Source: Arabidopsis thaliana
Taxonomy: Eukaryota > Streptophyta > Magnoliopsida > Brassicales > Brassicaceae
Direction of reading: 5' to 3'
Length of the DNA stretch: 64,000 bases
Assembly: GCF_000001735.4 (NCBI RefSeq)
Contig: NC_003071.7
Location: 10,037,151-10,101,150 of the forward strand
A program made the position numbers and the translations under genes. The notes below the pieces were generated by a model. It saw only the letters and a list, made by a program, of their open reading frames with translations, ran no database searches and was not told where the DNA came from. Positions 48,350 to 56,453 of this stretch are shown here, piece by piece (positions within the stretch are counted from its first letter, which is position 1; every line of letters starts with the position of its first letter).

Positions 48350-48358
48350 AAGTGAAGT
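48350..48358 (+). repeat. Left 9-bp target duplication of the MULE
   Basis: AAGTGAAGT, identical to 56445-56453, directly abuts the inverted end of the element. Confidence 0.8.
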
Positions 48359-48756
48359 GAGAGCTCACCTCTTATGCCACTATTGGAGAAGAAATAATCA
48401 CTCGTGCCATTCTTATGTTTGGAATATTATTATTGATTTTTATTTAAATCGAAAAATGAGGAAAGGATGAAAAACCCTTGCGAAACCACAAAAACTACAA
48501 GAAAACTTAATTTGTTGGGCTCGGGTCCAAAAAAAAATGTAAATACTCGGCCCAGTTGTATTATTTACAGAAAAAACCTAAGTAAAAACCTAAGTTCCCC
48601 CTTTTCACTTCTCGACTTCTTCCTCTTCTCTCCGTCGTCGTCTTCTCTCGTCTCCGACGATACCACTTTCACCGGAAAAATCAATCTCTTCTATTCTTCT
48701 TTCTTCTCCGTTTTCGTTCGTCTTTGTCTCTTTCATATCCGCAAATTTATTTTCCA

Positions 48757-51184
48757 ATGGCTAGAGTAAAAGACTCATCTGGAGAATATGAATCAACTAG
48801 GGTTGAATCGACCGGCGAAATTCCTCCATCAGTCGACGAGACCGCCGCCGAGATTCCCCAAAGAGATGAAGAAGGCGCAGAGCTTCTTACAACAGAAGAG
48901 GAAGCCGGAGAAATTCAGCCTACAACCGGCGATTGTGACGCCGCCGATTTGGGTAATTCAAACGCCGTCGCATGGGAATCAAATGACGATCTTTCAGACC
49001 CAAATGCCGATTCTTGTGCAGAAGAAGAAGAGGCAACGAATGCAGTTGTTCAACATGATGATGGAGCAAATAAGGTATGATAGAAGACCGTTATTATTTT
49101 GATTAGGCTCGTTTTAAGATATTATGCATGCATTGGTAAATGATTGGATTTGTGAATGGTGCTTCAGATAAAACAAGTAGTACAACTAGGTCGTAAATTT
49201 GTGAATGGTCATTCAGGAACAAGTAGTACAACTAGGTAGTTAATGTGAAATTGAAAGTATTTTGAATTGAATATGCAGGATGATGGTGATGATGATAACC
49301 TGCCGCAGAATATGCAGGATGGTGATGATGATCTTCAGCCGCAGAATATGCAGGATGATGATGATGATGATGATGATAATCAACCATTGCCGCCAGAAGT
49401 TATGTACTTTGATCCAACTACCTACACGAAGGTGTGTAAGATAGGAACGAGGTGTCAGTTGGTACAAACAGTGGAATTTATAGAGACTTTGGATGCAGAA
49501 CTGAAGTGGTTTAGGAATCATGACCAATTTAAGCACATATTCCACATGCCTAAGGAGCCCAATCACATGATTCAAGGCATGTGGATGCTTATGGTTCGCA
49601 CGGCTAAGACAGAATTGGAGAGAGAGTGTTGGTTTGTTGTCAATGGAGTACCTATAGGGTACTCAATTAGAGAGCATGCATTGTTGACCTGTTTGAACTG
49701 CCGTGAGTACCCAAAAAACTATAAGACTTTAGGCAGTTTGAAGTTTGTGGAGAGGTTGTTTAAGAGGACTGAGGACATCAAGATTAAAGACGTGGAAGAG
49801 AAGCTGGAAGAGTTTAAGAGTGAGAAGTCTACTGCTAGGTTGAAGTTGGCAATTCTGTTATTCTTAGCTAAGGTTATGAAAGCTGATTCTAAAGGGGATT
49901 CGAAGATAGAGGAGTTTTTGCTTAGGATTGTGGATAATGTCAGAGCTTGTGAGACATTCCCGTGGGGACGTTTTTCCTTTGAGCAGTGTATGGAAGGGGT
50001 GCGGAGAGTAATGAAGAACATGAAAGGTGTGGTGAAACCCAAGGCACAGACTGCTTTTTATGGATTTATTACTCCACTTGAGGTAAGTAGTCGAGTAAAT
50101 TATATGAGTGGCTAGATTTTGTTATTGTGAACTTTCATTTACTTTTATGTTTTTGTGTCTAGATTCTGGCATTTGAGTGCATTCCGCAGCTTGGGAAGAG
50201 ATTTAGAGAAGCTGTACGTGCAGACAAGGAATGTCCAAGAATGTGCAAGCACAAGTTCAGTGAAAGTTGCATGAAGGGATTTACTTTGGAAGAAATAAAT
50301 GAAGCACTTGGAGATATAACGGTTAGCTTTGTTCTCTTGAAATCTATGTTTATAATCTTTGTGGTGTTTGAAATATATGTTTACTTGACAGGATATTTCA
50401 AGCATCTTGGAACCTGATATGGATGAGAGAAAAATGTTGTCACGCGTTGTAGAGAAGCATGTTGATGATGGTATTGGATATATCGATCCAATTGTTGATA
50501 GTTGGAGAGAGAGGCTTATCGTAGAGAAAAAGAAGATTTTCTGGCGTAGTCTCTACCAAGCAGACATTGATGGTACACGTATTGAAACTGTTGATGATGT
50601 TCCAGCTGTACCTGAACCTGAAATCCCTGGGACATCGATTCTCTCGTTCAAGGAAGCTATGGAGAGAGGATTTGACAAGCTCACGGACAAGCTTGCTGTG
50701 ATGGATAGCGAAATCAAGCGGATTTGTGTGAGAGTACAAGGAATAGAGGAATATGTGGCAGATCAGCTTGAGAAAGAGGCAGAGAAAGACAAATATGAAG
50801 ATATGCGTCCTGGTTCAGCTGCTGATTTTGTGCTACCGTCTTATCAGCCAAGGGATACTCAGAGCAAGGCCTTGGTTATTCACAGTTGAATCCGTGACCC
50901 AGCACCTCCAACTATTGAGTCTCTAAGTGAGTTTTTGTTGAACTTTTGTGTAGTGATGCTTTCACAATAGTTCTTACATGTTTGGTTACATATTTTTGTA
51001 GGTGATGGCAGCGATGAGTCCGATGAAGAGGATAAGAAGAAGAAGAAGAAGAAGCAGATATCGAAGAAGAAGAGAAAGCATGTTGGTCCTACTCTGGAAT
51101 CTGGGAAAAAACGTGGAAGGAAACCTTCCAAGTATAAGGGGGAAGAGTTTACAGCTGAGGGGAAGCAAACGAGGAAGAGACTTT
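48757..51184 (+). pseudogene. DUF1985 protein gene of the MULE, with in-frame stop
   Basis: Exons 48757-49074, 49279-50082, 50163-50321 and 50392-50926, then 51001-51186 region. The N-terminus is acidic (many Glu/Asp, GATGAT repeats in exon 2). A DUF1985 domain lies in exon 2: FRNHDQFKHIFHMP, a MLMVRTAKTELE-type helix, ECWFVVNGVPIGYSIREHAL and LLTCLNC. Exon 4 has a coiled coil (FDKLTDKLAVMDSEIKRI). A TGA at 50887-50889 after LVIHS interrupts the frame; beyond it the frame stays open (IRDPAPPTIESLS) to a GTGAGT donor at 50927, and exon 5 (after TAG at 50998-51000) adds an acidic then Lys-rich tail (KKKKKKK, KKRGRKPSK) that looks like a nuclear signal/AT-hook. DUF1985 proteins are typical companions of plant MULE transposases; function is unknown. 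A truncated 424-residue product without the basic tail remains possible. Confidence 0.75.
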
Positions 51185-55728: not shown

Positions 55729-56444
55729 CGCTCCTGAAAATACAACCAGTTCAACTCCAATCAAACATTTTAATAGTTATACCACATGTACTCTTATCAT
55801 ACGTTGAAATCAATCTCTCGTCGCACTCGATTCTACTGAACCTAATTCGTTACCTTTCAATTGATTTCCAATGTTAATACATACCTATTCGTTAAACTAA
55901 TTGGTTAATCTAAACTTTGCAAACACAAACCCCCCAAATCTTTAATATGAAATCTCGGAATTCAAATTCAACTCACATTCAAACTACATTCCTTTGCTCA
56001 TCACCTCAAATAACGTTTCGGCAACCTCTAATCGATTACTCTTTACTTTGCAAACCAATCATCAAACTATCAAATTGAATCGAGCTGGGAATTATATAGA
56101 ATTCAAAATCCCAATCTAAAATCACAATGCACCAATGTCAAAGGAAATATGAGAAGAAACTGACCTAATTCATGGCTTTTACGCCGGATTTCAAGTCGGC
56201 GGCATGAGGAAATCGATGGTGGCCGACGAAGAAGATGAACGTCGACCAAAGAAGAAGAACACGACGACGAAGAGGAGAATCTCCGAACTCGATTTTCTTT
56301 ATTTAGCTTTTGAATTTCTTTTTCATTTTTTTAATCAACTCATTAAGGGTACAACTGGTATATCACATTTTCGGTGGCATTCAGATTAACTGATAGCAGT
56401 CCAGATCAGTTTTTTCAAAAAAGTGGCATAAGTGATAAAAGTTC
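55729..56444. other. Transposase promoter and right end of the MULE
   Basis: Non-coding sequence including the transposase leader and the right terminus (CTTATGCCACT on the minus strand at 56422-56432). The short open frame at 56204-56389 is not supported. Confidence 0.5.
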
Positions 56445-56453
56445 AAGTGAAGT

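Follow-up and report, generated by a model that had tools for sequence, protein, structure and literature searches.

The window analysed here, a 64-kb stretch of the Arabidopsis thaliana genome (C2:10037151-10101150), contains an element of 8,086 bp that spans 48359-56444 and is framed by two copies of AAGTGAAGT. Between weakly matching ends lie three genes, VANC, VANB and VANA, with short motifs, a tandem repeat and an inverted repeat around the middle gene:

48350..48358, no strand: left target-site duplication, AAGTGAAGT; boundary common to other copies
48359..48381, +: left terminus, a weak inverted end with shared core TTATGCCACT; 16/23 against the right end
48757..49074, +: VANC exon 1, in open frame 48586-49080; start and splice site placed by eye
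49148..49244, +: 46-bp tandem repeat in putative VANC intron 1, with two AGTTGTAC AC-type motifs (49180 and 49226, minus strand)
49279..50082, +: VANC exon 2 with DUF1985 (~49594-49992); splice sites placed by eye
50163..50321, +: putative VANC exon 3, an open frame; splice sites placed by eye
50392..50889, +: VANC exon 4 with DUF287 (~50395-50556), ending at a private stop
51002..51186, +: probable last VANC exon, lysine-rich, in open frame 50971-51186; splice site placed by eye
51355..51957, +: four AGTTGTCC motifs (VANC6 CC-type) at 51355, 51395, 51709 and 51950
51542..51622, +: left arm of an inverted repeat (81 nt, 99%) flanking VANB
51814..52062, -: VANB exon 2, with W-rich motif IQWWDQA and a coiled coil predicted from profile neighbours and by eye
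52142..52321, -: VANB exon 1, a GRF-like zinc ribbon (CxCG...C) with the intron directly after it
52507..52587, -: right arm of the inverted repeat flanking VANB
53356..55728, -: VANA, a MURA-type transposase with Plant_all_beta, MULE and SWIM domains; frame interrupted
56349..56356, -: a further AGTTGTAC motif, close to the right end
56422..56444, -: right terminus, a weak inverted end
56445..56453, no strand: right target-site duplication, AAGTGAAGT, a perfect pair with the left

In Pfam searches, VANC matched DUF1985 (88.7 bits, cut-off 35.1) and DUF287 (88.9 bits at 50389-50889), and the transposase matched MULE (56.6 bits, cut-off 27.6) and SWIM (39.1 bits). The three gene types named in an earlier note on this DNA (MURA transposase, DUF1985 and GRF) are thus present, but the GRF label holds less firmly: the middle gene scored only 16.0 bits for GRF (PF06839, gathering score 25.9) and 20.5 bits for DUF730, both below cut-off. 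Elsewhere the window carries ordinary host features, namely a methylesterase-like frame (6099-6620) and an LBD-type transcription factor frame (23092-24033), both named by eye, and a tRNA-Met (22296-22367).

Boundaries and copies in the genome

The coordinates, length and perfect AAGTGAAGT pair given in the earlier note are all exact; its 17/23 match between the ends came to 16/23 in an ungapped count. From the window alone, the case for a AAGTGAAGT-bounded element is only moderate. Exact 9-mer pairs spaced 7-9 kb apart number 2,235 in the 64 kb, and nine of them have ends agreeing at ≥14/23 positions, with the AAGTGAAGT pair at the top (16). Such background agreement favors a reading in which duplication and inverted ends are coincidental and the three genes derive from nested or unrelated elements. 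This is nevertheless extremely improbable, as ten copies share common boundaries and the three genes, whole or broken. A chance duplication was rejected on the copy comparison together with the count of 9-mer pairs. A MuDR-type MULE with long terminal inverted repeats (TIRs) was rejected too: TIRs of that type measure at least 100 bp, and the longest such pair at the ends of this element is 29 nt at 72% (48371-48399 / 56404-56432).

Queries taken from the two ends and from the middle gene were used to search the genome (119.7 Mb, 7 contigs); copy counts are lower bounds. The earlier note had proposed looking for elements with the same ends in which DUF1985, GRF and MURA genes co-occur, and at least ten such copies with both ends were found, including that of the window (at least nine further copies in the same genome). 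A partial copy (C3 ~10.81 Mb) and a diverged relative (C5 13.56-13.58 Mb) were also detected. With ≤3 mismatches allowed, the left-end pattern (48363-48384) occurred at 10 genome places at 0-1 mismatch (reversed control 0). The right-end pattern (reverse complement of 56418-56440) matched 10 places with 0-1 mismatch and another 5 with 2-3, against 1 for the reversed control. The three genes keep their order, at similar spacing, in the 8/10 copies for which this was computed.

In 9/10 complete-ended copies the same boundaries are directly flanked by an exact duplication, ≥9 bp long and different in sequence at each locus. The tenth (C2:1758578-1766558) has no duplication beside its body; a matching left end lies ~18 kb off (C2:1740510), and with the left end assigned from that distance the duplication agrees at 8/9. 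The element boundaries are settled because family copies show duplications of different sequence at the same boundaries, and the description of a complete-ended MULE is borne out. The window copy is a single insertion that made a 9-bp target duplication. In a search for an empty version of the insertion site, the 501-bp left flank had no second match in the same genome. Two relatives (C5:12466481-12482338 and C2:1740510-1766558) are split by insertions of ~8 kb and ~18 kb, respectively, which are probably nested elements.

The nearest copy (C4:5943242-5951605) differs from that in the window by 46 substitutions over 8,083 aligned sites (99.4% identical) and has extra stretches of 200, 42 and 20 bp. 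We take this copy, by its chromosome and position, to fit AT4G09370, the VANC6 gene; it probably supplied the VANC6 that was tested.

VANDAL6-type identity, target motifs and decay

We assign the element with high confidence to the VANDAL6-type non-TIR Mutator-like elements. The assignment is based on gene order, the DUF1985+DUF287 gene, weak ends and VANC6 target motifs; the family is named from motifs, domains and chromosome position. Further VANDAL traits are the MULE/SWIM transposase and the 9-bp duplication. According to the available passages of PMC6446971, VANDAL non-TIR MULEs have terminal inverted repeats that are absent or short and degenerate, and those of Hosaka et al. 2017 (PMC5735166) describe VANC proteins with DUF1985 and DUF287 domains and VANC6 as AT4G09370 from A. 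thaliana VANDAL6. Somatic movement of VANDAL6 copies has been observed in Tsu-0 met1 plants (PMC12312487). The element type is already known, and the locus is mostly an ordinary member of a well-studied family. The joint presence of GRF, DUF1985 and transposase genes, which had seemed unfamiliar, is the known VANA-VANB-VANC set of Arabidopsis VANDALs.

The same gene order and similar spacing occur in a VANDAL21 copy at C2 ~10.00-10.01 Mb with VANA21, VANB21 and VANC21, which we regard as Hiun on the basis of where it lies, its gene set and its VANC21 motif. It differs from the window element in protein identity (~42% for VANA, ~20% for VANB) and in its target motif. The element resembles VANDAL6 in its MULE transposase, its DUF1985+DUF287 gene and the CC- and AC-type motifs in non-coding repeats. 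AGTTGTCC and AGTTGTAC are target motifs of VANC6, and both VANC21 and VANC6, as transgenes, bring about a sequence-specific methylation loss (PMC5735166 for both statements). Seven such VANC6 motifs lie within the 8.1-kb element versus three across the other 56 kb; whole-window shuffles averaged 3.45 and peaked at 9, compared with 10 in the real window. Three AGTTGTCC motifs (51355, 51395 and 51709) fall between VANC and VANB, and that at 51950 falls inside VANB exon 2. Among the fetched loci, CC-type motifs numbered 4-7 in the ten complete-ended copies, three in the partial C3 copy and one in the diverged C5 relative. The fetched Hi locus contained neither VANC6 motif and had CAGTATTAC six times; CAGTATTAC was absent from the remaining loci checked alongside it, and the VANC21-type AGTATTA was absent from the window element.

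The window copy has interrupted VANA and VANC frames, a point absent from the earlier note. Against the 791-aa open VANA frame of the C4 5.94-Mb copy, its VANA lies in three pieces with one stop: two frameshifts, near 55.63 and 54.42 kb, divide it, and the stop is near 53.53 kb. A whole stop-free VANA frame was present in 2/10 complete-ended copies, C4 5.94 Mb (the query) and C4:14.28 Mb (by tblastn). The late VANC stop is private to the window copy (missing from 10/10 relatives aligned there) and would remove the lysine-rich last exon. The VANB frame is open. The window copy is thus decayed, with VANA lost and VANC function possibly lost too, and would therefore be mobile only with proteins from intact copies. 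In the VANC DUF1985 exon, dN/dS was 0.24 to 0.76 in 4/5 pairs, with small counts and stops in two pairs.

VANB, its relatives and its possible role

The small GRF-like/coiled-coil gene is VANB. It encodes 142 aa, and a GT-AG intron immediately follows CPMLK; its exon 1 reached 19.3 bits for GRF (PF06839) in the genome search. We call it GRF-like, not a GRF member, because the Pfam gathering score was missed. In the Pfam search of VANB21, the matches at E up to 1 included neither GRF nor DUF730. VANDAL21 (Hiun) nonetheless has a VANB-like frame between its DUF1985 and transposase genes (CPCG...YQCEKFK), with an intron in the same place and a coiled-coil-like exon; the VANB21 and VANC21 locus numbers are given in the available part of PMC10398659. 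This counterpart and the further copies ruled out a GRF gene unique to the window copy. Profile comparisons (three sequences per profile) linked VANB6 to VANB21-like proteins (probability 94, E 1.4e-7) and to DUF730 (probability 84, E 8.1e-6). DUF730 (PF05325) likewise has a zinc ribbon followed by a coiled-coil-like part, in two exons with the intron at the matching place. In a ten-row alignment that includes three DUF730 rows, in which zinc-ligand roles are putative, the first three ribbon cysteines were invariant (10/10 rows). A cysteine occupies the fourth-ligand place in the three DUF730 rows only; VANB6 has asparagine there, and the other seven rows have a histidine one alignment column later.

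A profile of ten VANB-like proteins found its best solved-structure match in the GRF zinc fingers of NEIL3 (PDB 7omk and 7jl5; E 2.5e-5 and 1.1e-4), over the VANB ribbon and the W motif that follows. The best PDB match is split into two stretches, both weak (10.1 and 16.3 bits), and the weaker structure matches include many coiled coils. NEIL3 differs from VANB in that its GRF domains are in tandem and within a DNA repair glycosylase. GRF domains bind single-stranded DNA. The NEIL3 match suggests that VANB may be a nucleic-acid-binding transposition accessory.

The family picture of VANB rests on Pfam GRF and DUF730 searches, with DUF1985 and MULE genome matches taken from the best 150 of 297 and the best 150 of 292 candidates, respectively. 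Within 10 kb of the 13 DUF730 loci, a DUF1985 match was found in at least six and a MULE match in at least four. Among 66 GRF matches, at least 13 had both DUF1985 and MULE within 10 kb; 500 shifted sets averaged 1.3 and never had more than 6. Independent support is modest because 8/13 of these matches are VANDAL6 copies and the remaining five, by themselves, would stay within the range of the shifted sets.

VANDALs have been studied as transposons that encode a sequence-specific anti-silencing protein of their own, and the VANDAL placement explains the parts of this element. In an intact member, VANC (DUF1985+DUF287) recognises AGTTGTCC/AGTTGTAC in the element's non-coding repeats and removes DNA methylation, as published for VANC6, and VANA, by homology, would then mobilise the element through its weak ends. 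The VANB ribbon may bind nucleic acid, perhaps single-stranded ends, while its coiled coil would dimerise, and the dimer could assist transposition through integration or end repair. MuDR has an accessory protein of its own, MURB. We tentatively prefer a role for VANB as a transposition accessory. It is similarly possible, rather than probable, that VANB is a member of a family of plant proteins with a GRF-like zinc ribbon and a coiled coil, DUF730 among them, perhaps with histidine as fourth ligand in the VANDAL branch, and that it represents a MURB-like ssDNA-binding transposition factor retained in MULEs with DUF1985. What this analysis usefully adds is a modest, testable lead: VANB clusters with GRF-like ribbons and turns up again close to DUF1985 genes of other MULEs. 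VANB was named only as an ORF, gene body or intron in the available parts of PMC5735166 and PMC10398659. The VANDAL, VANB and GRF literature searched, available in part, yielded neither a description of VANB as a GRF protein, which is not proof of being unpublished, nor a binding or transposition test.

The earlier note had proposed an accessory transposition or an anti-silencing role for the GRF gene, and the first of these is the reading preferred here. VANB does sit between VANC and VANA, with one VANC6 motif in its own exon, as might be expected of an anti-silencing protein or a VANC cofactor; however, specific methylation loss was still seen with a Hi transgene from which VANA21 and VANB21 were absent (PMC5735166), making such a function very unlikely. 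The VANDAL placement corrects the gene responsible, and the anti-silencing idea fits VANC, the DUF1985 gene. VANB could also be a host GRF gene that was captured and now serves no purpose, a passenger reading that we consider unlikely. Gene capture is frequent in MULEs and would favor this, as would the little-constrained coiled-coil exon: exon 2 dN/dS, from small counts, was 0.30 to 1.09 in the five of six pairs that could be computed (the pair at 0.73 carries a stop) and near 1 in 3/6 comparisons. Capture by MULEs is the subject of PMC13317346, available in part. The inverted repeat around VANB, with AGCTCGTCC-like units, points the same way, occurring in 4/13 loci (the window, C4 5.94 Mb, C1 8.45 Mb and C4 14.28 Mb). 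Against a passenger stand the VANDAL21 counterpart, which agrees in intron position and in gene order, the VANB relatives near DUF1985 genes elsewhere, and the zinc-ribbon exon, for which the two stop-free pairs of greatest divergence gave dN/dS values of 0.17 and 0.29 (small counts). Other exon 1 pairs gave 0 (a closer pair) and 0.54 (a stop-carrying pair), and two were not computable. The inverted repeat itself is possibly a recent subfamily gain because only 4/13 loci carry it, and it could form a hairpin and act as a small-RNA source.

DUF730 loci have one arrangement unlike that of VANB, with a second GRF gene within 4 kb in 7/13. In five (L024, L027/L028, L029, L030 and L034), the DUF730 gene and the second GRF gene are 2.2-2.6 kb apart in opposite orientation, and at least 4/5 have a DUF1985 match within 10 kb of the DUF730 gene. 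At C3 ~5.28 Mb (L032), a MULE with DUF1985 carries a GRF gene at the VANB position, the C-terminus of which resembles a transmembrane helix by eye.
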